From Lampris incognitus (taxonomy: Eukaryota > Chordata > Actinopteri > Lampriformes > Lampridae), in the NCBI RefSeq assembly GCF_029633865.1, contig NC_079214.1, forward strand, positions 29,260,079 through 29,324,078: a stretch of DNA of 64,000 bases, in the 5' to 3' direction. Both the position numbers and the translations under genes were made by a program. The stretch's first letter is position 1, and the number at the start of each line of letters is the position of its first letter. Positions 1,289-40,100 of the stretch are shown here, piece after piece. Below the pieces are notes generated by a model, which did not search any database, had not been told where the DNA came from, and was given only the letters and a program-made list of their open reading frames with translations.

Positions 1289-2905
1289 TTAGGGGTCGCC
1301 ACAGCGGATCATCCGTTTCCATTTCTTCCTGTCTTCTGCGTCTTCCTCTGTCACACCAGCCACCTGCATGTCTTCCCTCACCACATCCATAAACCTCCTC
1401 TTTGGCCTTCCTCTTCTCCTCTTCCCTGGCAGCTCCATATTCAGCATCCTTCTCCCAATATACCCAGCATCTCTCCTCCACATATGTCCAAGCCATCTCA
1501 ATCTTGCCTCTCTTGCTTTGTCTCCAAACCGTCCAACCTGAGCGGTCCCTCTAATATAATCGTTCCTAATCCTGTCCTTTTTCGTTACTCCCAGTGAAAA
1601 TCTCGGCATCTTCAACTCTGCCACCTCCAGCTCCGCCTCCTGTCTTTTCGTCAGTGCCACTGTCTCCAAACCATATAACATAGCTGGTCTCACAACCATC
1701 TTGTAAACTTTCCCTTTAACTCTTGCTGATACCCTTCTGTCGCAAATCACTCCTGACACACTTCTCCACCCACTCCAACCTGCCTGCACTCTCTTTTTCA
1801 CCTCTCTACTACACTCTCCGTTACTTTGGACAGTTGACCCCAAGTATTTAAACTCAAATGCCTTTGTCACCTCCACTCCTTGCATCCTCACCATTCCACT
1901 GTCCTCTCTCTCATTCACGCATAGGCATTCCGTCTTGCTCCTACTGACTTTCATTCCTCTTCTCTCCAGTGCATACCTCCACCTCTCCAGGCTCTCCTCA
2001 ACCTGCACCCTACTCTCGCTACAGATCACAATGTCATCCGCGAACATCATCGTCCATGGAGACTCCTGCCTGATCTTGTCCGTCAACCTGTCCATCACCA
2101 TTGCAAACAAGAAAGGGCTAAGAGCCGATCGATGTAATCCCACCTCCACCTTGAACCCATCTGTCATTCCAACCGCACACCTCACCATTGTCACACTTCC
2201 CTCATACGTATCCTGCACCACTCCTACATACTTCTCTGCAACTCCTGACTTCCTCATACAATACCACACCTCCTCTCTCGGCACTCTGTCATAAGCTTTC
2301 TCTAAATCTACAAAGACACAATGCAACTCTTTCTGGCCTTCTCTATACTTCTCAATCAACATTCTCAAAGCAAACATCGCATCTGTGGTGCTCTTTCGTG
2401 GCATGAAACCATACTGCTGCTCGCTGATCGTCACCTCTCCTCTTAACCTAGCTTCTATTACTCTTTCCCAAATCTTCATGCTGTGGCTGATCAACTTTAT
2501 ACCTCTGTAGTTGTTACAGTTCTGCACATCGCCCTTGTTCTTGAAAATCGGTACCAGTATGCTTCTTCTCCACTCCTCAGGCATCCTCTCACTTTCCAGG
2601 ATTGTGTTAAACAATCTAGTTAAAAACTCCACTGTCATCTCTCCTAAACATCTCCATGCCTCCACAGGTATGTTATCAGGACCAACTGCCTTTCCACTCT
2701 TCATCCTCTTCATAGCTGCCCTCACTTCCTCCTTGCTAATCCGCTGAACTTCCTGATTCACTATCCCTACATCATGCAACCTTCTCTCTCTCTCATTTTC
2801 TTCATTCATCAGCCCCTCAAAGTATTCCTTCCACCTTCTTAGCACACTCTCCTCGCTTGTCAGCACATTTCCATCTCTATCCTTGATCGCCCTAACTTGC
2901 TGCAC
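1289..2905 (-). pseudogene. RTE reverse transcriptase, copy A
   Basis: The RT domain runs from the fingers ([15 protein letters not shown]) through [32 protein letters not shown] (catalytic D) and the palm box MMFADDIVI (ADD). The C-terminal tail ([32 protein letters not shown]) ends in IRCGDP as in other RTE proteins. The usual QGSALSP box reads HRSALSP here, a small lesion compared with copy B. The domain is 538 codons without stops, but it is joined to the endonuclease only by a frameshift. Confidence 0.88.
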
Positions 2906-4272
2906 ATCCTTTGCAGCTTCTGTCTAGCCAATCGGTACAAGTCCTTTTCTCCTTCCTTAGTGTCTAATCTGTCATACAACTCACCATACGCCTTTTCCTT
3001 TGCCTTTGCCACCTCTCTCTTTGCTTTACCCTGCATCTCCTTGTACTCCTGTCTACTTTCTTCATCTCTCTTACTATCCCACTTCTTCTTTGCCAACCAC
3101 TTCCTCTGTATACTTTGCTGTACTTCCTCATTCCACCACCAAGTCTCCTTGTCTTCCTTCCTCTGTCCTGATGACACACCAAGTACCTTCCTAGCTGTCT
3201 CCCTCACTATTTCGGCAGTGGTTGTCCAGCCATCTGGCAACTCTTCACTACCACCCAGTGCCTGTCTTAACTCCTGCCTGAACTCCACACAACAGTCTTC
3301 CTTCTTCAACTTCCACCATTTGATCTTCGGCTGTGTCTTCACTCGCTTCCTCTTCTTGGTCTCCAAAGTCATCCTACAGACCACCATCCGATGCTGCCTA
3401 GCTACGTTCTCCCCTGTCACCACCTTGCAGTCTCCAATCCCTTTTAGATGGCGCCTTCTACATAAGATATAGTCCACCTGTGTGCACTTTCCTCCACTCT
3501 TGTACGTCACCCTGTGTTCCTCCCTCTTCTTGAAATATGTATTCACCACAGCCATTTCCATCCTTTTCGCAAAATCGACCACCACCTGTCCTTCCACATT
3601 TCTCTTCTTGACTCCATACCTTCCCGTCACCTCCTCATCACCTCTGTTCCCTTCACCAACATGTCCATTTAAGTCGGCTCCAATCACCACTCTCTCCTCC
3701 TTGGGTACCCTCTCCACCATGTCGTCCAACTCACTCCAGAATTCTTCTTTTTCATCCATCTCACACCCAACTTGCGGGGCATATGCGCTGATAACATTCA
3801 GCAATAAACCTTCAATTTTCAGCTTCATACTCATCACTCTGTCTGACACTCTCTTCACCTCCAGCACGCTCTTGACATACTCTTCCTTCAGAATTACCCC
3901 TACCCCATTACTCCTCCCATTCACACCATGGTAGAAGAGTTTGAACCCACCTCCGATACTCCTGGCCTTACTCCCCTTCCACCTGGTCTCTTGCACACAC
4001 AGTATGCCTACCTTTCTTCTTTCCATCATGTCAGCCAGCTCTCTCCCTTTACCAGTCATAGTGCCAACATTCAAAGTTCCAACTCTCACCTCCACATGCC
4101 TACCCTTCCTCCTCTCTAGCTGCCCCTGGACATGCTTTCCCCCTCTCCTTCTCCTTCGCCCAACAGTAGCATAGTTTCCACCGACACCCTGCTGGTTAAC
4201 AGTACCGGTGGCGGTCATTGGTAACCCGGGCCTCGACCGATCCGGTATGTAAGTCTTATTTATGATCCGCAT
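2860..4272 (-). pseudogene. RTE endonuclease and linker, copy A
   Basis: The AP-endonuclease-like domain nicks target DNA to prime reverse transcription. Visible motifs are [17 protein letters not shown] near residue 70, CVQETRW (catalytic E), VISAYAPQ, VVIGADLNGHVG (D-x-N), VDYILCRRRH (D) and [12 protein letters not shown] (the final catalytic H region). A Lys/Glu-rich linker toward RT follows. The frame shifts near 2,900, where the RT frame (1,289-2,905) takes over. An intact element would have one continuous ORF, so this is a pseudogene by one frameshift. Confidence 0.85.
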
Positions 4273-4591: not shown

Positions 4592-5266
4592 ATGGCAAAG
4601 TTTTTCGCGTCGAGCGACGCATTCCCGGCGTTTGATATCCATGGAGGTGCCCCGGGGACGTTGGGACCTAGATGGGAGAAATGGACGGCTCGTTTCGAAA
4701 ATTTCTTGTTGGCCATGGACATCAAAGACAATACTAGGAAACGTGCCATGCTACTTCATTATGCGGGCGAACAGGTATATGACATTTTTGTGACGCTGCC
4801 TGATAAGGGAGTCGCTAAAGACTTTGATAAAGCCGTTAAGGCACTTGAGACTCATTTTTCACCAAAGAGGAATGTGGATTTTGAGGTGTACAAGTTTAGG
4901 CAATCTGCACAGTCTGGAAATGAAACCGTTGGGGAATACTATGTCCGCTTATGCACACTTGCAGTGTCCTGTGAGTTCTCTGATGTTGACGCAGAAATAA
5001 GACGCCACATTGCGCAAACCTGCGTATCGCACAAGCTTAGGAGAAAAGCTCTCACTGATCCCATGGTGAATCTGACAAAACTCCTGGAACTAGCCAGGCT
5101 GGAAGAAGCATCTGAACAACAAGCACGTGAAATGGAGAAACGATCAGACACCGTTTCGGATGGTATTTTGGCTCTGCGCCACCGAGAGCGCAGGAATCAG
5201 CGGGCTAGGCAACCTGCTCATTCTGCCCGGCAGCCTGCACATACGGCCCCAGGCGCATGGACGTGA
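4592..5266 (+). pseudogene. gag, inner Ty3/gypsy
   Basis: This Gag has 224 codons, from ATG 4,592 with good context (CATCATGGC). The capsid region includes RWEKWTARFENFLLAMDI and VYKFRQSAQSGNETVGEYYVR. The zinc knuckles that should finish the protein are not in this frame. They appear in the next frame (5,265 onward), so a one-base shift near 5,255 separated gag from pol. It is unrelated at close range to the outer gag at 439, so the two gypsy elements belong to different lineages. Confidence 0.82.
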
Positions 5267-7079
5267 GTGCTTCAACTGCGGTGGCTCATTCCCTCATCAA
5301 GGTGACAGCCCAGCACGTGGGCTTGCATGTCGCAATTGTGGCAAACAAAATCATTTCTCAAAAATGTGCCGGTCGCGCTCAAGACAAAGTATGAACTATG
5401 TACAATGTCAACAGTCAGATGACACCTCAAAATCAAATGCCCACTCACCGCGTCCCAATGAAGACAGCACAGACCACTCCCCCAGATATTTTTTTACACT
5501 GAAAGGCCCAGCTATCACAGCGCCAAAACAGACCATTCAGATAAATGGGTTGCCTCTCGAAGTGCTGGTAGATACAGGAGCCTCAGTCAATGTAATGGAC
5601 TATTGCACATTTCAATCACTCCCAGCCCGCCCAGTACTGCAGAACACACCAGTCCAGATTTTTGCTTATGGCTCCCGCACGCCTCTGCCAATGCGCGGGC
5701 AATTCTGCTCACAACTCATTGAATGTGTTGAAGGCCCCACGTCATGGGTCTCTCCGGTGGTAGTAGCTCCAAAGCCCAAACAACCAGGAAAAATCAGACT
5801 GTGTGTTGACATGAGACGCCCAAATGAAGCCATCAAGCGTGAGAGGCACCTCACTCCCACAGTGGATGACATTCTAGCAGACCTCAATGGGGCAAAAGTG
5901 TTTTCCACACTTGATCTGACAGCTGGCTACCACCAGATTGAACTCCATCCTGACTCCCGCTACATAACAACCTTCACAACACATGTGGGCCTGAGGCGCT
6001 ACAAACGACTCAACTTTGGGATATCTTCAGCGGCAGAGATTTTCCAAAAAACTATTAGAGAGACACTGTCTGACATCCCGGGTGTTCTGAACGTCAGTGA
6101 TGACATGCTGGTGTATGGCACTAGTCAAGAAGAACATGACAAGAGCCTAGAGGCGGTCCTTACGCGTCTCAGTGAATGTAACCTCACACTCAATGCTGAC
6201 AAATGTGACTTCAACAAGACCAAGGTGGAGTTTTTCCGATATGTATTCTCAGATCAAGGCATCTCAGTGGACCCCAAGAAGGTGGCTGCAGTCAAGGAGA
6301 CCCCAGCCCCACGGAACCCAGGAGAGGTCAGAAGTTTCCTTGGCCTTGTCACATACTGTGGTCGTTTCATTCCAGGTCTAGCCACCCTGACACGGCCTCT
6401 CAGAGAGCTCATAAAGAAAGACCAGCTGTGGGACTGGTCCCCAACCCACCAGACAGCTTTTGACAAACTCAAAAATGCACTGAGCAGCGACACAGTCATG
6501 GCCTATGTTGACCAATCGAAACACACAGAAGTTGTTGTGGACGCAAACCCTGTAGGCCAAAGGGCTGTTCTTACCCAAACTGACTCTGATGGTACACTGC
6601 ACACACTTGCCTATGCCAGCAAAACACTGTCACCTGTAGAACAGCGATACTCACAGACTGAGAGGGAGGCTTTAGCTATAATCTGGGGCTGCCTTCATTT
6701 CCAGCTATATCTACTCAGATGCCCATTCACAGTGGTTACTGACCACAAGCCGCTGGTGCCCATGTTTAACAAGCCATCTTCCTCTCCCCCTCCCAGAATT
6801 GAACGCTGGCTACTAAAGCTACAGAACTTCAACTTCTCTGTGACCTACAAGGCAGGTGTTGGTAACCCAGCAGACTACTTCTCCAGACACCCAGTCCCCA
6901 CACTTGGTCCAACTGGTACACTGGGAGAGGACAACAGCACGTGGAGTGAGACTGACCCAAATGACTTTGTTAACGATGAACCCGACCCAACGTCAGGCCC
7001 AGTGACCTCAGGCGCCCCTCGCTACCCAAGAAGGGTTGCCGTGAAACGGCCAGAGTACCTTAATGATTTTGTGCCATAA
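5127..7079 (+). pseudogene. pol (zinc knuckles, protease, RT, RNase H; integrase missing), inner Ty3/gypsy
   Basis: Readable content starts near 5,265. Two CCHC-like knuckles (CFNCGG..., CRNCGKQNHFSKMC) come first, then the aspartic protease active site VLVDTGASVNVMD at about 5,563. The RT has SPVVVAPKPK, RLCVDMRRPN, VFSTLDLTAGYHQ and the palm box NVSDDMLVYG (SDD in place of the commoner YLDD). RNase H follows (VVVDANPVGQ, YSQTEREALAI, VVTDHKPL). The protease C-terminus and the RT N-terminus are joined directly near 5,735 (ECVEGPTSWVSP), and everything between ADYFSRHP and a proline-rich tail is gone, including the whole integrase. It could move only with enzymes supplied by relatives. Confidence 0.88.
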
Positions 7080-7255: not shown

Positions 7256-9645
7256 CAGCGGTCGGGAACCTATGGCTCGCGAGCCATATATGGCTCTTCC
7301 GGTGACGGCATATGGCTCCCAGACAATTTTGAGTTGAAAATTATTTTTTTTTCAAAAAAATCAGTTTGGAACTGATTTTAAAATACTTGTGATATTTCTT
7401 AATAATACTGTGTCATTTTAAAGTAAACAGAAATTAGTTTTGAAGATAAATTTCACGGGTCACGGGTCACCCGTGGGTCGGGTCGGGAACAAATGGCTCG
7501 CGAGCATGTCCGGGTCATTGTAAAGGTGAAGAAATCAATTTTTTTCAGATAGCCAACTAGTTTATCCGCTTCAACCCTTGTAACGGAAAAGATGGCGAAA
7601 GGAAAAAAAGACGATGATTACCGTGCATTCCAGGCTGCGTGGACAGAGGAATCTGCATTTGTGGAGAGAGCAGGATCTGCGGTATGTCTAATATGCAATG
7701 ATAACATTGCATCGATGAAACGGTCAAATATAAAGCGGCACTTCGATACGCACCATGCTTCATTTGCACGGAAATCTCCAGCGGGGGCCGGCAGGGAAAG
7801 GGCATGCGAGGAGCTACAGCGGAGAGTGCAGACGAGTCAGCAGCAACTACGTGTGTGGACCAAGCAAGGGGACGGGAATTCCGCTAGCTTTGCGGCTGCT
7901 TTGGCAATAGTAAGGAATGGAAAGTCATTCACAGATGGCGAGTATGCCAAAACATTCATGCTTGATGTGGCCAATGAACTGTTTGATGACTTCCCAAATA
8001 AAGACAAGATAATCAAACGAATAAAAGACATGCCCCTGTCAGCAAGAACTGTGCACGATCGTAGCATCATGATGGCAAATCAGGTCGAGGAAACCCAAAG
8101 TAAGGACATAAACGCCGGGACATACTTTTCTCTCGCGTTAGATGAGTCAACAGACGTTAGCCATCTATCTCAGTGCAGTATAATTGCCAGGTATGCTGCA
8201 GGTGACACACTGCGTGAGGAAAGCTTCGCTGTTTTGCCAATGAAAGGGACAACAAGAGGAGAGGACTTATTCACGTCTTTCATGGAGTTTGCTAAAGAAA
8301 AAAAACTACCGATGGATAAACTTATTTCTGTCTGTACTGATGGTGCACCCTGTATGTTGGGGAAGAACAAAGGATTTGTAGCGCTTCTCCGTGAACATGA
8401 AAAGAGAGCCATCCTAAGTTTTCATTGCATCCTGCACCAGGAGGCGCTTTGCGCTCAGACGTGTGGCCAGGAGCTTGGCGAGGTGATGTCTCTGGTCATT
8501 CGAGTGGTCAACTTTATTGTTGCCCGAGCTTTAAATGATCGCCAGTTTAAAGCTCTGTTAGAAGAAGTTGGGAATCATTATCCCGGTCTGCTTTTACACA
8601 GCAACGTGCGTTGGTTGTCAAGGGGGAAGGTGCTCAGCCGTTTTGCAGCTTGCCTGAGTGAAATCCGGACTTTTCTTGAAATGAAAGGCGTCAAGCATCC
8701 TGAGCTAGACAACACTGACTGGCTCCTGCAGTTTCACTATCTCGTGGACATAACTGGCCATCTGAACCAGCTCAATGTGAAAATGCAAGGTATTGGAAAT
8801 ACAATCTCATCCCTTCAACAAGCAGTGTTTGCATTTGAAAGCAAGCTGGAAGTCTTTCTCAGGGACATTGAAACAGGTCGTCTTCTGCACTTTGAAAGAC
8901 TGCAACAAGTTAGAGATGCATGCTTAGCAAGTGACTCCACTCAACATCTGGATCTCCAGCAGCTAGCTGGCTTTACGTTCAATCTCCTGCAGTCATTCAA
9001 AGCACGTTTTGGAGAATTTCGTGCGCGCACTGGTCTTTTCAAGTTCATCACTCATCCACATGAGTGTGCAGTGGACAAAATCGACCTGACATGCATCCCC
9101 GGGGTCTCTATCGGAGACTTTGAGCTGGAAGTTGCTGACCTGAAGGCATCAGACATGTGGATGAGTAAGTTCAAGTCACTTAATGGAGAGTTGGAAAGTC
9201 TTGCGCGACAGCGAGCAGAGCTGGCGAGGGAACACAAGTGGACAGAAATTAAAAATCTTCAACCTGAAGACCAGCTGATTCTTAAAACTTGGAACGAGCT
9301 TCCTGTGACATACCACACAATGCAGCGTGTGAGTATTGCCGTATTGACCATGTTTGGCTCTACATATGCATGTGAACAGTCTTTCTCGCATATGAGGAAC
9401 ATTAAGACCAACCTACGCTCACGTTTAACTGATGGAAGCCTCAACGCCTGCATGAAGCTCAACCTCACCACGTATGAACCAGACTACAAGGCCATCAGCA
9501 AAACCATGCAGCACCAGAAGTCGCATTAAAAGTAAGACATATTTAATTTATTATACGTTAAAAATACTATATGGCTCTCAATGAAATATATTTAGAAATA
9601 TTTGGCTTTTATGGCTCTCCCAGTCAAAAAGGTCCCCGACCCCTG
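7256..9645 (+). mobile_element. complete autonomous hAT transposon (Charlie-like)
   Basis: The 2,390-bp element has terminal inverted repeats CAGCGGTCGGGAACC and (reverse complement) CAGGGGTCGGGGACC. A perfect 8-bp target duplication CTATAGCA flanks it (7,248-7,255 and 9,646-9,653). Subterminal TGGCTC repeats flank a single open transposase gene. The ends and the TATGGCTC-rich subterminal DNA match the Charlie type of hAT elements as I know them. It inserted in the 3' UTR of the inner gypsy element and is therefore the younger of the two. Confidence 0.93.
7592..9529 (+). CDS. hAT transposase, intact (GTF2IRD2/ZBED-like)
   Basis: This transposase cuts and pastes its element through the inverted repeats. 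It is an uninterrupted 645-aa frame from ATG 7,592 to TAA 9,529, a normal length for the group. An N-terminal BED-type zinc finger reads CLICNDN...KRHFDTHH (about residues 31-55). The RNase H-like core has SLALDESTDVS (first acidic site, about residue 187), SVCTDGAPCMLG and the C-x2-H box SFHCILHQEALC. A helical insertion follows (NVRWLSRGKVL). The C-terminal hAT dimerisation region (YACEQSFSHMRNIKTNLRSR) is complete. Relatives domesticated in mammals include GTF2IRD2. With intact ends and duplication it could be active, or recently so. Confidence 0.92.
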   Translation: MAKGKKDDDYRAFQAAWTEESAFVERAGSAVCLICNDNIASMKRSNIKRHFDTHHASFARKSPAGAGRERACEELQRRVQTSQQQLRVWTKQGDGNSASFAAALAIVRNGKSFTDGEYAKTFMLDVANELFDDFPNKDKIIKRIKDMPLSARTVHDRSIMMANQVEETQSKDINAGTYFSLALDESTDVSHLSQCSIIARYAAGDTLREESFAVLPMKGTTRGEDLFTSFMEFAKEKKLPMDKLISVCTDGAPCMLGKNKGFVALLREHEKRAILSFHCILHQEALCAQTCGQELGEVMSLVIRVVNFIVARALNDRQFKALLEEVGNHYPGLLLHSNVRWLSRGKVLSRFAACLSEIRTFLEMKGVKHPELDNTDWLLQFHYLVDITGHLNQLNVKMQGIGNTISSLQQAVFAFESKLEVFLRDIETGRLLHFERLQQVRDACLASDSTQHLDLQQLAGFTFNLLQSFKARFGEFRARTGLFKFITHPHECAVDKIDLTCIPGVSIGDFELEVADLKASDMWMSKFKSLNGELESLARQRAELAREHKWTEIKNLQPEDQLILKTWNELPVTYHTMQRVSIAVLTMFGSTYACEQSFSHMRNIKTNLRSRLTDGSLNACMKLNLTTYEPDYKAISKTMQHQKSH

Positions 9646-9691: not shown

Positions 9692-9898
9692 TGTGATGTT
9701 CAGTATTAGGGGAATACACCTTTAAGGACACAGGGAGTTATGTGATAGTAAACAGAGCAGCCACGGGAGCGGGAAGATAGACGAGGGTCAGTCGGATTAT
9801 GTGCACGTTATGCATGGAGCGAAATAAACATGCCAAAGTTCCACGGCTAATTCAGAAACGATGTTATCATCTGTGAGAGTGAAAAGTAGGTCATTACA
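9692..9898 (+). repeat. 3' LTR, inner Ty3/gypsy
   Basis: This is the 207-bp partner of 950-1,157, ending ATTACA at 9,898 and followed by the AGCAG duplication. A purine-rich tract (GGGAATGTTGGAGGGA) just before 9,692 is a likely polypurine primer. Confidence 0.93.
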
Positions 9899-12800
9899 AG
9901 CAGCTGAGTGTGCTGCTATGCTAAATACACAGCAAGTGGCCACCTCCAGTCAAGCTGCCAATAACTTCTCCCTCTACTCACGGCTGCCCCTCGGGACGCA
10001 ACCCAGCCAGAGCGAGGCGGGCGCCGACTCCACTAAGGACGTCTTGCAACTGCAACGACAGTGTTCTCGGCCCCGCCCTCAACAGTCCTGTGGTAACTGT
10101 GGATCTCAGTCTCATGTTTCAAGGGCTCAGAACTGCCCTGCCCGTGGCCAGACATGCCGTAGCTGCGGTAAGCAAAATCAATTTGCCAACGTCTTTCGAT
10201 CTTCCCCGGCTGGGTCAGAGAGCCATACCCCCCAGTCTTCAACCGCCATCATTCACAAGGTGAGCTCTGGGCCAGTGTCATTCAAATCATGCACAGTCAA
10301 CATTAATGATGTGTGTATCCCCCTGCTGTTGGACACTGGTGCAGGTGTGTCTCTCCTGAATGTTGATACCTACAGTCAATTTTTCGGTTCACTGCCACTG
10401 TCTGCACCCTCAGCTGTCCTCTGTGGGTATGGTGACTCCAAAATCGATCTGGTTGGCTCTCTCCAAGTGACTGTCCGCTATGGAACCAAGCTGGTGCCCA
10501 ATGCAGTTTTTCATGTGGCATGCCGTGGGGCCAACCTGATGGGCCTGGACCGGTTCTCCGCTCTGGGGTTCTCCCTCTTAGACACAAGGGGGGCAGCAAT
10601 CCTGACTGTTGCCACGCCTTGGCAGCAGAAGTGGCCATCGCTGTTTATGGGGCTGGACTGCCTCTCTGCCTTCGCCCATCAACCTCTCCTCAACCCTGCT
10701 GTGAAATCGGTCATCCAACCACTGCGCCGCATCCCGTTGGCTCTCCGTGATGGGGTCTCCGCCGAGCTGCAACAACTGCTGGAAGCTGGCATCATTGAAC
10801 CGGTGGACGCGTCACCTTGGGTCTCAAACCTCGTGGTGGCTAAGAAGAAGTCGGGGGGCCTGCGTGTCTGCGTCGATCTACGTGCAGTAAATAAGGCAGT
10901 GGTCCCTGATAAGTATCCACTGCCCACCTCAGAAGAACTCACTGCTCAGTTCTATGGCTCTGAGGTGTTCTCCAAGCTCGACCTCAGACAGGGGTACTTA
11001 CAGGTGCCCCTCCACCCCAGCAGCCGAAACCTCACAGCCTTTGTGACACATGCAGGAGTGTTTCGCTACACCAGGATGCCTTTCGGTCTCAGCTCCGCCC
11101 CTAGCTGCTTCCAGAAAATCATGGTCTCCGTGCTGGCTGGCATACTGGGCGTGGCCATTTATCTGGACGATATAGTGGTACACGGGCCCACAAGTGAAAT
11201 CCACGACAAGCGCCTCAACATGGTCTTCGCAGCCCTGTCCAAGCAAAAGCTAACTCTCAATGCTGAGAAATGTGTCCTCTCTGTGCCAGCCATCGAGTTC
11301 GTGGGGTTCCAACTGTCAGCGAGTGGTGTAACTCCACTACAATCCAACGTGGACGCCATTCAGGCCATCCCTGAGCCCAGCTCAGCCGCCCAGGTCGCCT
11401 CCTTCCTGGGTATGACAAGTTACTACCTGAGGTTTCTTCCCCAGTACTCTGCGACCACAGCCCCCCTGTGCCAGCTGCTGCGTAAGGACGAGCCATGGGT
11501 GTGGTCAAAGGCATGCAGTGACGCTGTGCGTGATCTCAAGACTCAACTGACTTCACCACCAGTGTTGGCTCACTTCGACATCTCCAGCTCCACCTTTGTG
11601 ACCTGTGACGCGTCAGCCACAGCGATAGGGGCTGTGCTGTCTCAAACCCAGAACGGTGTGGAGAAGCCCATCGCCTTCGCCTCCCATGCCCTCAACCTGA
11701 CCGAGCAGCGGTACTCCGTGGGTGAGCATGAGGCGTTAGCCTGTATCTGGGCTTGTGAAAGGTGGCACCTCTACCTCTATGGCCGCTCCTTCACCCTCAG
11801 GACAGATCACCAGGCCCTGACAGCGCTGCTGTCCACATCTGGGACAGGCCACAAACCCCTGAGGCTGCACCGCTGGTCGGACCGCCTCCGCCAGTACAAC
11901 TTCAGCCTGCAGTTCACCCCAGGCAGAGACAATGTTGTCGCCGACCTGCTCTCTCGCTCTGTCTCCACCCCAGCTCCACAGACGGACACTGACTGTGTGG
12001 AAAAGGACATTGTCCAAATGCTACACACACCCCTTCAGGCCACTGTCTCTCCGCAGAAGCTGAGGGCAGCCTCCGAACAGGACCCAGTCCTCTCCCAGCT
12101 CCGCACCTACATCCAGCACGGCTGGCCTCACAAGGTCCCAGAGAAGCTGGCTGTGTTCGCCCGAGTCAGACAGGAGCTCTCCTGCTGGAACGACACCTGC
12201 ATGGCACGTGGGTTTTGCACAGTGGTCCCAGCTGCTCTCCGTGCGCGTGTTTTGAATATGGCGCATGAAGGCCACCTGGGCATTGTGAAACTGAAACAGT
12301 GCTGCCGAGACCTGGTGTGGTGGCCGGGGATAGACAGAGATATTGAGGCTCTGGTGAAGGACTGTTCTGCCTGCCTTGTGAGTGGCAAGACTGGCCACCA
12401 GGCTCCCCCACCCCTGCAACCTCTCGCCTGGCCCTCTCAGCCCTGGGAACACCTGCAGTTGGACATTTGTGGTGAGATCCATGGAGTTCCCCACCACCAA
12501 CGCTTCATGGTGGTCGCCTACGATCCACACTCAAAATGGCCTGAACTCACCACTTCCGGCATTGTGACCTCACAGATCATCATCGACTTCCTGGACTCTC
12601 TCTTCTCTCGCTGGGGCCTCCCAAAGACCATCACCACTGACAACGGCCCTCAGCTGGTCTCTGCTGAGTTCACTGCTTATCTCGACAGCAAGGGCATCCG
12701 TCGTATACGCACTGCATACTACCACCCCCAGGCCAATGGCGGCGTTGAACGTTTTCACCAGTCACTGAAGAACGGCCTCAGAGCACACATGGCCCAAGGG

Positions 12801-13052
12801 TGCTCTTTCACGCAGGCCATCCATCACACTCTGCTGCACTATCGGGCCACACAGCACTCGACCACAGGCGTCTCTCCAGCCTCTCTCATGCTAGGCCAGG
12901 AACTGTGCATGCCCCTTGACAGGCTCCGCCCCTCCACACCCCAGGCACCTCCCTCTGGGGTCAGAGCCTCAGTCACTCGTCAGCAGATGCAGATGAAGCA
13001 ACGGTTTGACCAGAGGCTGAACGCCAAAGGGGGGCATTTGAAAAGTATTTGA
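9899..13052 (+). pseudogene. pol (zinc knuckles, protease, RT, RNase H, integrase), outer Ty3/gypsy
   Basis: Second half of the frame begun at 439; the apparent ATG at 9,861 lies in the inner LTR and is not real. Order: degenerate zinc knuckles (CGNCGSQSHVSR, CRSCGKQNQFANV with the last Cys lost), protease (PLLLDTGAGVSLLN), RT (RVCVDLRAVN, FSKLDLRQGYLQ, palm box AIYLDDIVVHG), RNase H (VTCDASATAIGAV, YSVGEHEALACIW, RTDHQALTALL) and integrase. The integrase has the HHCC finger (HEGHLGIVKL...CSACL) and the D-D-E core (LDICGEIHG, TTDNGPQLV, ANGGVERFHQSLKN). The frame ends about 30 residues after the core, at ...RLNAKGG, with no C-terminal domain and no 3' LTR. The element is truncated near 13,030 but otherwise has no stops. 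Confidence 0.9.
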
Positions 13053-31100: not shown

Positions 31101-34100
31101 GCAGTATTGATGATCCTAATAACTCTGACAGCGTTGACATAACCTGTGTCCAAAAATCTCTGATCAGTGAACAGTCCCAAAACATAATTGTGCCCGGCAC
31201 CTGAGCCCAGCAGTGAGTACAGTTAGGACTGGTAATTAGTTTCATTTTAAAACATGTGATTGGTGTAGCATATGCTCTGTGAATCACCTTATAGTGTATA
31301 AGCCAATACGCAATATTTTTAGAGGTACTGCTTATGTTAGACCATATCGTTCCCCAATTTGTTTCCAGACTGACAATGCAGAGTTCCCTGGCCCACACCA
31401 CTTCAACTGCCAGTTAGTCCATGGGCCAGACGATATTTCGGTACACTCAAGGTGGCAAAACTTACTTATAATTTTTGAAAGGATCCATGTCTGTAGATGA
31501 TATTTTGGTATGATAACCATTCCTGAGTGGCAGCTGTATCACAGTTATCAGCTCATGAAGTTAACCACCCGCTAAACTAAATTGCATTTTAGACGCTGGT
31601 GCATATCCTGGTTTAGCCTCATGGTCAGGACATTTTTCAATGTTCTATAATATTGTCTTTGGTATCATTTTAAAGGGGACCTTCTTAGCTTTCATTCAAG
31701 CCCTGTTGTGGATATTTCTCACAAATATAGAGGTCACTTGAGCTCTTCAACCCGTCAATAACACACATCTTTCTGCAATTTTCGCCTAAACTATATTCTT
31801 TCTTTTAGCCCTGTGGCATCTAGGAATATCAGGGACACAAAACACAAAAACTGGAATACTCACAGGACTGTAAAGATTCAGAAAATGTATAATATACCCA
31901 TACTATTTCATTGTGTGAGGTGATTGTGAGCCTTAAATGAGAACTAGACCAAAGCCAGTTAGGTCACAAACTGGTCTCTATACATTTGTTTAAATACACA
32001 ATCAAAATACATGATAAAAAGGAATACCATAGTGAGGTAATGAACTATTTTAATATTTTAAACAACATTGACATTTACATATACTTAGTCAATGATACAT
32101 GTAATCTCATATCATTAGTGGGTATATGTAATGGTAATAGGTAGGGTAATGGGTATATGTGAATATGGTTACATTATTGTTATCAAGCTCTGGGTAACCA
32201 AGTCCAGAATCAACATCCTGTGCATCAATAGACTACTACCACAGTAATACCATCAGAATAATCACACTGTCATTCATCAAACTGCTTGTTTCTCTCATCA
32301 TCTGACTCCCCAAGTTCAAAGTCCAGTTCTGGACCATCCTGCTGTTTTTGGTTACTGCAGGTCTGTAACCTGCACATGTCTGTGCATGGAAGTCCATTGA
32401 CAGGCACATGCAGCTGGGCATTTTGCATGAATGCACACACTTGCATGTTAGCATTTCCAAGACAACATCTGGTGCAGGTGGGGAGCGCATCCAGTAAATG
32501 GCCAGCTTGCCTTCATCGTCTGTCCATCCATACTCAGTAGGGCTTGGCACCACGGGGTTAGCCTGCAGACAGCACTTCCATATTGCTGCCTGATAGTTGG
32601 CTCGTTGAACATGCATAAAGAGACAGTCTCTACATGGTGGCAGCTGGCTGGACTCAACCTCTCCCCTTTTGGTGCAGAAGAGCTGGTAACGCAGTTTGTT
32701 CGCCTCAGCAGTGCTGCTATTAGCAACATACATCCGACAGGTGAACTGCTCAATTTTCTGGAACAGCTCATCACTCACATTCCATGTCTGTCCCAGTTGA
32801 CTAAAAGTCTCTTGGCAGGAAGTGTGCTTTCTCACTATCTTCAGGGCATTCAGCTTCCCTCGACCAGCGAATGCACTGACAGTGTCGCAGCCTGTGAAGG
32901 CATGTAAGCCAATTAGGTTGTCACAGATGCTGTCTCCAAGTGAACTTGCCAGTTTGGTGATGTCGACAAACGGTGTGCGGTTCTGAGTCCCACACTTCTG
33001 GTGCTGGGACAGGTGACAGGTGATGTCCTTCTGGAAGCCAAGACAAAGCACCATGACATCAGTGTCCTCAGCTGTAATGATAACTGACTTTGAGCCCGCA
33101 TTTGCTGCATGCAATGCATGCAGGAGCAGACGGGTGTCAGCTTCTTCATGTGTGGAGTGCAGTTCTGCTGCTTCCTCACACCCATCTTCTGTCAACTTGT
33201 AGCAGGTTTCCTTACAGGTCATGTACAACACCTTGCCATGCAGCATAGCTCTGTATCGTGGGAGTTTCCACCCTTCCACCAGAAACTTGATGAGACTGGT
33301 CTTGTTGGAGGAACTGCACAGAAATGTTCTCCACTGCTGGACGTGGTGTCCCCCTGCAAGATTCTTGTACTGGAGAGTGATGTCTCCACCCCGGTTCAGT
33401 CGTTCAGCATCTTTGATCGAAGTCTGGTGATAGACATCAAAAACAACATCAATCCTCCCACTCTGTGCTCCCTCATGGAGGACCTGGGTCAAGGCTGACT
33501 CTGCCAACTGTGCAAAGGTTTTGTTGTTGCCATTCATTTTTTGGACCAGGCTCATCCCATCAATGATGGAAGTAGATGGGATTGGGATGTCTTCTGCAGG
33601 AGATACATTCTTTTCAAGCTCTCTGGCAAGTGCAGCCTTGTTTGTTTTTCGTAAGGACCCATCAGCATTTGCCAGTGCCCATGGTAGTGGGCCCAATGGG
33701 TAGGCAAGGACATCCTTCAGATTCACCTTCCTGCTTTCAGCCACCAGGATCATGTGACTGAAAAGGTTTCTATCTGCCTTCAGAACCACATCCTGTGCTT
33801 TCTTTCCATGAGCTTGTTTTGTGCTGACATTGGAGAATGTTTTCAGACTTTGCTTGGTCATCTTGTCGTGGAATTTCACAGGTGGTGGGTCTGCATCTAA
33901 CCTTGTTTGCTGGAATGCTTGGTAGGCCTCTTCTCCTTTCTCAAGAGCTCTCAAGAGATCTATGGTCACATCAGGTGGAGCCATGTTGCCAGTGGAGAGG
34001 CTAACCAAATCAATCTCATCAGGGGACATAGGATTGAGCCAGTTATTCTCCATAAGGTCCATGAGAGACTGGACATCTGCTTCATCTCTCTTGATCCTTG

Positions 34101-37100
34101 GACTCTGTAGATCTGGATGAGACCATTTGCACCTGCCTTGACCTGTCAGGTCTCTCAGCTGTCTGAGGTACATGCTTCTATACTCAGCTGTGAGATAATA
34201 TTTGGTCACAGCTCCTGGCTTCAAGCTGAATCCCTTTGTCCCTCCAGCTGTTTGGGTGTCTTTGTTCACCGTTTCTTCTATAGCTTGGTCAACAGGGATT
34301 CGGCCAAAGGGATTGGTGGAGCCCAGTTGGACTGAGAAGCCTCCTTCCATGAATTCTGTGTACACATCTGGGTGTGTGATGGGCAGCTCAGACATCTGGG
34401 CGTAGTAGTAGGGGAGGTAGCATGCATAATTCATCCTGTCATAAGCAAAGCACCATGGGATCATTGCTCGAATGCTAGCCAAGTGTAGCATCCAGTCTCC
34501 CTCTCTGGATGCTTGGATGAGCCCCAACAAGATTTCAACCATGTCCAAATAGGACATCCAGAAGTTCGAGAGGCTGCCGTTTCCACCTCTAAGGAACTCA
34601 CGGTAGACTTCAAATAGATCCATGATGCGTGTACAAGAGCTGTTCTCGAGGACCTCCTTCAAAGCATGTTGTGAGACTTCTTTCCCAAGGCTGTCAATGG
34701 TCTTCAGTGTCTCATTCAGGTGAACCATGTCATTCCTGTGAGTTTCTTCCAACCAGGACAGGAAACCATTCAAGGTCAGTCGCATGAGAGCCTCATACAG
34801 GAGCTTGTGTAGTCGCACTGCCCTGTTGTACTTGCGGCCATCCATAACACCAGCAATTGAGCCTTCTGCAATCATGCCAGACTCAATGCAGAGGTCTTTG
34901 AGTCCAGCATCTTGGAAACGCTTTCCTATTATTGCCAGCAGTGTGCAGATGGTGTGGAATACCCCAAGCCTAACGATATCATGGAACTTGTCATGGTGTT
35001 TCCATGTGATCTCGACAGCCTTCGCATACAGGGCTTGGTCAAAGACACAGACAATCTTCCTCAGGCCTAAGCACTGCATGATGCTCAGTGACTGGTTAAG
35101 CACCTCGTTGACAGTAGACATTTTTGTCGCTCGAGCATTGATGGTAGGCAGATAGCCTATATTGTCGGGGATGACCGTCATCTCTCCTCGAGTCAGGATG
35201 TTGAAGCCTGTCCAGCTGCTGACTGACTGTTCTTCTTGTTGTGACATGCGTGCTAGGACCCAAAGAAGGTTTTTCTCTCTGGCAAGCTTAGTATTGGCTG
35301 CAGTATCGGCATCTGACTTTTTGCTTTGTGGTGGCCCTACCCGTTGTCCAGCATTGTAAGTTGGTAACATTGGTGGGGGTCCATCAATGCTTCTCTTCTT
35401 TGTTTTGGGAACAGTGGGCATGGGTTGGACAGGAAGTGGGTTGACTGGCTTTGCTTGCACAGCAATCCCATGGACTCTGTGAGATGTTCCCTCACCACTG
35501 ACAGTTTCTTCAAGACGGTCGATATTGTCCCATGCTAAAGTTATGAATATGCCAGGATGGATGTTAGCTGGAAGGGCAATGCCACTCCCTGATGATGACA
35601 GTTTCTGGAGACACAGGGCAGTGTTGATCTCTTCCATCTGTGAATAGGACAAACTGTGACCAAGTCGGTTGAGGATGTTTATCAACTCTACATTTCCTGT
35701 CAACGATTTGACACTGAATGGCAGAACAAAGTGCTTGGAAGGCTTGGTATTTCCACATGTCACTGCATATACTATGTCATGGCCAAATGACTGCAGAAGG
35801 CACTGCACTCTCTGGGATGCATGATTAGGATCATTTGAGCCTGTGAGTAGAGAGTACAGGAAGATAATGAGCGACTCTGGAATGGTAGGACATTCTGCTT
35901 CTGGTTTGACTTCAGGCGGCCAGGTTTGAGGAACATCTTGACTTTTAATGTCTGCTCTCAATTTGATGGCTGCTTTGGCTATAACATCTTGTGCACTGAC
36001 ACTTTTCAGGGTCTGCAGCTCCCTTTTGAGAGACTGATTTTCTTTGGCAAGTTCCCTCATGGACAAGTTATCGGGATAGAGGAGGAATTTTCCTTTCTCA
36101 TCAGGGAATATCTGCAAGGCTCCAGCAAACTCACTCTCCAGGTTTCGCCTTATGTGCTTCTTGGTTGATTCCTTGACTTGGGCAATGCCTTGGGAGTTCA
36201 TTGAAGCTACCAGTCTAGAAGAGAGATCAGTCATTGTCATCACTTGAGGATTGCCAAAAAGCTCCATCCTGATGAAGAGGAACAGCTCATTGTATGCCTT
36301 ATTCACAGCAGCTTCATACTGGGCTGCAGCATCATCATCTTCATTGCTGGCAACCTCTCCTTTGGAAACCTCTTCTTTGGTGTAAAGTCTATAGCATGAC
36401 CTGTGGTAGTGCCCTTCAGCTGCTACAAGGTCTCTACTCCCAATGGCAAGGATTCTGCTGTCCCTTTTCTTTGTGGCTGCACTCCTGATCTTTGCATCAG
36501 CTCGCAGTTCTCGACACTGCACCAGTACTTCTCTCGTATTCTGTCTCTTGGAATATTTGCTGTTTTTCTGACAAAATATGCACTCTGCATCATAAGTCCT
36601 AGATGTACTTGGAGCATGTCGAGCTACTCTCTTAGATTGTTTCTCTTCAGCAGAGACACAACTTTTCTTTTCTTTTGCAAGGAGGCCATCAAGAATTTGC
36701 TTCATAGTGAAGATACTGCGACACTTTCTGTGGTAGTAGATTGCTGGAATCTGTCCCTCAGGAATGTCTTTTGCCAGTTTCAAAACTGGTGCATGATTTC
36801 GTATCTGAGCTGCCCTGAGCAGAGTTCTCCATGAGTCGACACTTTGTAGTGAAACCAGCTTATCTGTATCATCAGAACAGTGGATAATGCACTCCACCCG
36901 TGGGCGCTTTGGTATTGGGTAAAAACTTGCTTGTTCACCAGTGGCCATATTCAGTCAGTTTTCACCTGCCACATACAAACAAATACATGTAACTTAGGTG
37001 TATGAACACTACTAAAACAAAGTTTACTTTGCTTCACCAGCGTCATATTACCATTATTTATCTTACATAGCCACAAATAGATACATTACCTAGTTGCTAT

Positions 37101-40100
37101 GCAACAGCTGTATTTTGTCCACATGAGGCCGCTAAAATCAACACAAGATGAAAGTTCCTCGTAGCCACTTTAACTAATCATATTAACACATACATTAAAA
37201 GAACATGCTAACATTATGGGAAATTAGCTTACAATCTTCTCCAGAGTGAGACAAGAAGATAGATACCAGTTTCCTCTATATGTGTTTAGTAGAAAGCTAT
37301 CTGGCTGCACGTTAGCCTAGCTTAGCACAATGAATGGAAGTACACAGTACTGGTTATCCTTGGTTGTTGGCCAACTAAGAACTGTCCCAGAGTTTAAGCT
37401 AGGCTAATCAGTACCAGGGGTGTTGAAATGCTATATTTGTAAAAATCTGGGCAAATACACAATCGTGAGAGGCACAGAAACAGGTTTCCTGAAAGAAAAA
37501 TGAAATAGCTGCTCATTTGGAAAGGTTATCATGTATTATTTTACTTGTGTTAGTGTACCAAATAAAATGGCACCAGTGAAGTTGTGTCACCTTGGGTGAT
37601 ATCGATATCTGGTCTGACCCATGGACTAACTGGCTTTGGTCTAGTTAGTTTCTTAGTAATAATGCCCTTCTAATTTAAGGTTCACAATGACCTCACACAA
37701 TGAAATAGTATGGGTATATTATACATTTCCTGAATCTTTACAGTCCTGTGAGTATTCCAGTTTTTGTGTTTTGTGTCCCTGATATTCCTAGATGCCACAG
37801 GGCTAAAAGAAAGTATATAGTTTAGGCGAACATTGCAGAAAGATGTGTGTTATTGACGGGTTGAAGAGCTCAAGTGACCTCTATATTTGTGAGAAATATC
37901 CACAACAGGGCTTGAATGAAAGCTAAGAAGGTCCCCTTTAAAATGATACCAAAGACAATATTATAGAACATTGAAAAATGTCCTGACCATGAGGCTAAAC
38001 CAGGATATGCACCAGCGTCTAAAATGCAATTTAGTTTAGCGGGTGGTTAACTTCATGAGCTGATAACTGTGATACAGCTGCCACTCAGGAATGGTTATCA
38101 TACCAAAATATCATCTACAGACATGGATCCTTTCAAAAATTATAAGTAAGTTTTGCCATCTTGAGTGTACCGAAATAGGAAATTTTGGGCTCTGGCCCAT
38201 GGACTAAGTGTCTTAGTAGAGTGATCAAGCAGAGCATTACATATACGCGTCACTGTCCCCTGAGTACCCCGCCCAGGACCAATCCACTCCTCCACGGTGT
38301 GTTCTGGCAAAGGTCCATTCCAGGGCACCCCACATATTTACATTGCAGATCTCAGTCTCAAGTAAAAAAAAGAAAGAGGTGCCCGGTAAATCATATTCCT
38401 CCCTAATATCTTGGAATGAACGGAGTCCAGCATTGTTAAAAATATCATTAAGAGTGAAGGCACCTTTTTGTGACCATGAGGGAAATGTAAAAGGCTGCCC
38501 ACCTGATTGAAGGGGATATTATTCCATAGTGGAGATGTTTGATGAAATAAATCTATTTTGCCCATCATCAGTTCCACTATTTTAATACATCAATAGAATT
38601 GGTTACAATGCTCCCGTATCATAGATAAATGTTTTTGCGCCCCCTGCGTGTATATAATAAGTCTTCCAGACAGTGTGGCTTCACACATGCTGCCTCCATA
38701 GCCCGCAAAGGGACCTCAGATTCCTGGTTTCTCCAAACATGCAGTGGTCTAATTTGAAAAGCATAATAATAAAAATTAAGATTTGGGACAGCTAAGCCTC
38801 CAGTGAGTTTGGTTCTTTGTAAGTTTGATTCGTGCATGCTTTCCTCCCCAAATGAACTGTGATATGAGGGATTACATTTCTGTGATAAATTTAGGTGGTG
38901 GTGCTATGGGGATCATAAAAACAAAAAATTAATCCAAGGCAAAATGTTAATTTTGATAGTTGTAACTCTGCCTTGTACAGACACAAAGAGAGCCCGGCCT
39001 CTTCAGATCATCTGTAAACTTCTTTTTCACGGCCAAAACATTTTCTTGAACTATTCTACTAAGACTGAGGTAAATCTTTATGCCAAGGTATGCAAGGGAT
39101 GTACAATTAGGAATGTCAGCGGTCAAACTGGTATTTAATGCAGCGGTATTCAATGGAAGAAGAGCAGGTTTAGTCCAGTTGATTTTATATCCTGTCATCC
39201 CTTTAAATAGAACAAAGAGTTTTAGAACCTGCAGTAGTGATGTCCAAAAATTAGACATGAAAAGAAGACAATCATCTACATATAAGGAAATATAACGTCT
39301 AGATTGGTCTGTGGTTATAGGAGATATTGTGTCACTCTCTGATGGACTGAGCCAGGGGTTCTAGGGACAAGGCGAAGAGCAGAGGGGAAAGCGGACAACC
39401 CTGTCTGAGGAATAATGTGAGGAATAAACAGACCTAAAGAGTGAACAATACCAACGTCAGTCCAAGTCCCGCCACTGTTGAATAGCTAAATTAGCAGGTA
39501 GACACAGTGTAAAGCATACTGTCCCAAGATCGTTTAGCTGTGGGCAACATTGACTCACGGTGGCGGTGACGAGGCGTCCATGTTGTCGCCGTTGTCCGGC
39601 TCCAGGAACAAAGCGGCCATTTCTTGGTTTTGCAGGGCTGGTGGAGGTTGAAAGGTATTTTGAAGAAACTTCTCGGCTTCGTGTGGCGTCCCAAAGTTGA
39701 TAGTGTGCCCACGATAGATGATGTTTAGCTGGGCCGGGTAAAGCAAGAACGGCTGGAGCCCAAACGAAATCCTCCTCTTGTGGACCGGGGCGGACTCCTT
39801 CCGTTTGCTCATCGTTTCTCTGCTGTAATCCGGGAAGAACGGCAAGGTTTGCTTGTTATACTTAACGGGCTGAGCTCTAGCGCCCTTCAAAATGGCTTGA
39901 CGATCAGAGTAGTCCAGCAGTTTGAATATCAAACAGTAGGCAAAGGGTGAGAGACTACGTTGTGTCTTTGTTATTATTATCTAAACATTAACACACCGTT
40001 GTTCTGTGTTCTAGTCTGCGCGCATCAAGACGTATACCATACATAAAATGCTGAAATCGGGGACATTTCCGGGGACAACTTTAGCCGGGGACAGGACATC

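Follow-up and report, generated by a model that had tools for sequence, protein, structure and literature searches.

A probable Academ-type transposon of Lampris incognitus with a DDE-like core fused to a predicted FEN/EXO1-type nuclease

The window, a 64,000-nucleotide stretch of Lampris incognitus contig NC_079214.1, contains a 6,792-bp element (Table 1) which, by comparison with published descriptions of Academ, is assigned with good confidence to this superfamily, and there most likely to AcademX, as a cut-and-paste transposon whose one intronless gene would encode a protein combining a DDE core with a fused FEN nuclease. An element of this type is already known, while the pairing of the two activities offers a concrete idea of how the DNA cuts are finished.

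Table 1. Features of the element and of its encoded protein, with positions in the window
Feature	Position	Strand	Remark
Whole transposon	31415..38206	- (gene on minus strand)	Termini TAGTCC...GGACTA; 3-bp duplication; 12/12 terminal bases matching
Target site duplication (TSD), AGT on +, ACT in gene sense	31412..31414		End-placement scan; supported by flank joining and LINE relatives
TSD, AGT on +, ACT in gene sense	38207..38209		As above
Terminal inverted repeat (TIR), gene 3' side	31415..31943	+	Shared 21-bp tail to 31962
TIR, gene 5' side	37668..38206	-	
Internal copy (about 84%) of the terminal approximately 56 bp (end duplication)	37579..37634	-	Just inside the 5'-side TIR
1,570-codon ORF	32236..36948	-	Family frame lost at about 32398; last approximately 50 codons out of frame
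Two Cys/His zinc-binding-like modules, residues 20-186	36391..36891	-	Column conservation; putative zinc binding
Winged-helix-like region, residues 199-294	36067..36354	-	Probable DNA binding
RNase H-like DDE core, residues 469-902	34243..35544	-	D474 (and D477), D637, E891; helical insertion about 663-867
FEN/EXO1/XPG-type nuclease, residues 1103-1470	32539..33642	-	Predicted structure and column conservation
CXC-like cysteine cluster, C-terminal, residues from 1502	32276..32445	-	Split by frameshift near 32398

Ends, inverted repeats and the interrupted LINE

The two inverted repeats share a core of 510 nt (31434-31943 and 37668-38177, with 5,724 nt between), which is 99% complementary with 7/510 mismatches. 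Such a match is far beyond chance, and it bears out the near-perfect repeats of about 0.55 kb noticed in the preliminary description. The outer ends of the inverted-repeat match lie at 31411 and 38210. A scan of end placements (38200-38219 against 31405-31421) for duplications between 2 and 10 bp, with a minimum of 4 matching terminal bases, returned two solutions, one with a 3-bp duplication (ACT in gene sense, TAGTCC...GGACTA) and the other with a 2-bp duplication (TA, GTCC...GGAC). The TA reading was rejected, as it would lengthen the empty site by 5 bases and break the LINE frame, and the LINE relatives show no such site. The span given earlier (31414-38207) exceeds the element by one base at either end.

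The flanks joined with one copy of ACT give a LINE frame with no stop across the junction. Nine LINE relatives were found, four of which carry PF13966, presumably the zinc-binding part of reverse transcriptases. Eight of the nine were aligned, P0130 with its 46% coverage of the query being left out; seven of the eight span the junction, and none of these seven is gapped within 10 residues either way, while P0124 begins just past the junction. P0127 begins about 6 residues before the junction; in P0126 a single residue is gapped some 18 residues upstream, and in P0128 two residues some 12 downstream. The residues TLAVE at the insertion site are common to P0122 and P0123. As the joined frame is open and the relatives are ungapped at the junction, the element is, on this sequence evidence, a transposon inserted into a LINE with a 3-bp duplication. 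Repeats, duplication and insertion site can all be read directly from the window, and the earlier statement that the element is lodged in an L1 stands as to a LINE-type host frame.

The homology of the 5'-side repeat to the other repeat ends right after a matching TTAG, at the internal copy of the terminal 56 bp, which seems to be an earlier terminus, since capped by a duplicated outer end. The presence of this second copy just internal to the 5'-side repeat suggests that the long repeats may have grown by the copying of one end to the opposite one. The other repeat closes, at 31942-31962, with 21 bp that exactly repeat part of the 5'-side internal junction, which likewise points to end duplication.

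Domains of the encoded protein

The 1,570-codon frame reported earlier exists as a single minus-strand ORF, but it follows the family frame for about 1,517 codons only. The match of relative P0002 runs in frame -2 of the window as far as 32398 and then in frame -1 from 32398 to 32276; the frame is thus lost inside the CXC-like cluster, and the last 50 or so of the 1,570 residues are not those of the family. The C-terminal ends of the relatives form this cysteine cluster, where Pfam TCR (PF03638) is weakly matched in 3/6 scanned relatives (E 0.11-0.27). The window copy may be non-autonomous, unless the frameshift is an assembly error; it is an ordinary member of its family, possibly a defective one. 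At the other end of the protein, the alignment columns contain two putative zinc-binding modules formed by C20, H73 and C76 and by C123, C126, H182 and C185.

For the C-terminal region, structure prediction followed by structural comparison gives a high-confidence FEN/EXO1/XPG (PIN-superfamily) fold, in agreement with the earlier guess of a PIN-fold nuclease. FEN motifs of the kind named at that time are present in the alignment columns as E-E-x-D (1268-1271), D-x-D (1295-1297) and GCD (1353-1355). The acidic set comprises D1130, D1167/D1171, E1269, D1271, D1295, D1297 and D1355, with a Gly-rich turn at 1362-1365. Each acid of this seven-acid set occurs in 98-100% of ungapped rows and in the canonical order, by which we take these acids to be the counterparts of the metal-site residues of EXO1/FEN1. 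Compared with the FEN1/EXO1/XPG/XRN nuclease superfamily, the identity is 9-16% among the structural matches listed, and the nuclease here differs in its setting, between a transposase-like core to which it is fused and a CXC-like finger that comes after it.

Upstream of the nuclease, D474, D637 and E891 are near-invariant in the alignment columns, and E689, E719 and D887 are equally invariant. In the predicted model the three residues lie on β1, β4 and the helix after β5, respectively, in an RNase H-like order of elements, and a DDE layout is assigned to this region with moderate confidence, that of the FEN fold being strong. A long helical insertion preceding the Glu helix of an RNase H-like core is also a trait of RAG1 and Hermes (hAT), and the distance from the second Asp to the Glu (D637-E891, 254 residues) is the same in RAG1. 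The span structurally matches Hermes, RAG and an integrase with modest Z only; 9 of the 50 listed structural-match rows cover it, all nine being RNase H-fold proteins. Foldseek with a model of residues 1-1060 gave no match at E ≤ 0.001, the top rows being mainly MarR-type and ORC entries and Hermes standing at rank 33 (E 2.0). An enzyme without a DDE core was set aside in view of the element order, the near-invariant acids and the structural matches of modest Z. The earlier suggestion of a mobilising enzyme different from DDE transposases is not supported, as the same protein carries D474, D637 and E891 in RNase H-like order.

Relatives and placement in Academ

The window protein has no significant match in Pfam, NCBIfam or PDB sequences and no helicase family match, and family profile searches of PDB sequences returned nothing informative. 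The protein database contains 208 relatives at E ≤ 1e-3 (7,992 candidates scored; best 120 of the 208 listed), the best of which aligns with 97% of the query at 75% identity; the source names among those listed are hypothetical, uncharacterized or Tesmin/TSO1-like CXC proteins. Several animal groups, including lancelets, cnidarians, a bivalve and fish, occur among the matches listed, where named relatives come, for example, from Branchiostoma, Oculina, Porites, Actinostola, Mercenaria, Nucella, Nymphon, Eleginops and Epinephelus. When the query was restricted to residues 1040-1518, 721 matches reached E ≤ 1e-3 (best 120 of 721 listed). A protein from Lampetra fluviatilis (P0171) matches this shorter query at 86% over 57% of its length, and at the amino-acid level is 83% identical to window 32374-33222 (289 aligned residues), more than the best full-length relative (75%). 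Horizontal transfer or a host similar to lampreys might account for this similarity to a lamprey protein.

The full alignment, comprising all 120 listed relatives and the window protein, has two blocks with invariant acidic residues, and clusters of cysteines and histidines at its two ends. Two further alignments, A1 and A2, contain 82/120 listed relatives each and a piece of the window protein, the 38 omitted being P0116, of 2,025 residues, and shorter relatives of 981-1,411 residues; viral-contig scans with each of these two alignments confirmed no relatives. Strict regular expressions found all motifs in 59/121 sequences, with individual counts (of 121) of 117 for DNID, 118 for DQA, 79 for DQ..E.T, 111 for DVVFD-like, 105 for EEAD, 106 for DTD, 104 for GCD and 90 for CXC. 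They were replaced by alignment-column counts, as fragments and a too narrow DQ-x-x-E-x-T pattern gave many misses. Both the DDE-like and the FEN-type motif sets are present in lancelet, coral and sea-spider proteins (P0016, P0024 and P0041). PF20231 (DUF6589) matches a region including the DDE core in two of six scanned relatives, P0115 and P0066 (E 2.2e-7 and 2.1e-5, the second below the cut-off), which suggests that DUF6589 may be a transposase core; a literature search for DUF6589 together with transposon found no paper.

The nuclease of AcademX is of the XPG type. The element very probably belongs to Academ, judged by published descriptions of this superfamily. In one of these, AcademX is DDE-type, encodes a nuclease and has a TSD of 3 or 4 bp, while AcademH encodes a helicase and has a TSD of 9 or 10 bp, a difference related to the encoded helicase or nuclease (PMC10045372); here a predicted FEN-fold nuclease occurs with a TSD of 3 bp at one insertion. 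The earlier view that the element fits no named superfamily is doubtful, as its DDE-like core, nuclease and TSD match the AcademX description given there. PMC10294476 follows Yuan and Wessler 2011 in counting Academ as one of 17 DDE/D superfamilies, and the curated Academ elements of its bivalve-centred library average 5,565 bp, against 6,792 bp here. Academ is listed in zebrafish, medaka and stickleback and as absent from tetraodon in PMC4746887. Among molluscs Academ is nearly bivalve-only in the account of PMC10294476, with which the gastropod Nucella among the present relatives is a small mismatch. The accessory nucleases of Kolobok are of the PD-D/ExK, His-Me finger and DEDDh types, none of those named in the portion of PMC9587614 concerned being FEN-type.

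It is unlikely that the element represents a DDE superfamily of its own, whose FEN domain was acquired independently of Academ. Such a reading would accord with a likeness to Academ drawn from descriptions, with the names of the relatives, and with a literature search that found no paper pairing an XPG or XPG-like nuclease with Academ among the matches listed (Kojima 2020 lying outside its coverage). However, the nuclease, the 3-bp TSD and the spread over lancelets, cnidarians, a bivalve and fish fit the AcademX and Academ descriptions, and Academ has been described with an XPG-type nuclease.

Proposed division of labour and other elements in the window

DDE enzymes in general bind the ends, then cut and join the 3' strand, and a short TSD of fixed length with inverted ends is typical of them; in Tn7, TnsB and TnsA split the strand work. 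In the mechanism proposed for the present Academ-like element, DNA binding and the location of the ends would fall to the zinc and winged-helix-like parts at the N-terminus and to the CXC-like finger at the C-terminus, the RAG1/Hermes-like DDE core would cut the transferred (3') strand and join it across a 3-bp stagger, and the fused FEN/EXO1/XPG-fold nuclease, as its site is complete and conserved, would process the other (5') strand, or flaps or gaps at the ends. We tentatively suggest that the FEN domain might be a dedicated second-strand nuclease in a eukaryotic arrangement akin to TnsB-TnsA, the DDE core cutting and joining the 3' strand and the FEN domain cutting or trimming the 5' strand, and that it may shorten the staggered gap. 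If true, gap shortening would explain the TSDs of 3-4 bp in nuclease-bearing Academ elements versus 9-10 bp in helicase-bearing ones. With an intact FEN-type nuclease behind a DDE-like core in one predicted chain, its role in the second-strand cut and in TSD length is directly testable.

The FEN/PIN-fold domain is the most confidently predicted one, with a complete acidic set, and the structural match of the DDE span is modest, so that this domain might itself mobilise the element, as suggested earlier, the upstream region being a DNA-binding scaffold only. This is quite improbable, as D474, D637 and E891, likewise read directly from the alignment columns, are as invariant as the FEN acids, the element order and the long insertion before the Glu helix are traits of DDE enzymes, the listed structural-match rows over this span are RNase H-fold in 9/9 cases, and a TSD of fixed, short length between inverted ends is what DDE enzymes typically leave. 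That the locus is a degenerate, host-domesticated or chimeric gene instead of a transposon, to which the frameshift near the ORF end might point, can be dismissed almost entirely in view of the few TIR mismatches, the 3-bp TSD, a frame within a LINE that is otherwise open for about 1,517 codons and the 208 relatives in several animal groups.

The window also contains an open 645-codon ORF at 7592-9529 (+), which by its motifs we take to be hAT/ZBED-type transposase-like; hhalign of the family against this ORF gave a probability of 0.1. Further long ORFs are located at 9861-13052 (+), 4592-7079 (+) and 1289-4272 (-), which are presumably retroelement-like, with aspartic protease/RT/integrase-like and RT/endonuclease-like motifs.
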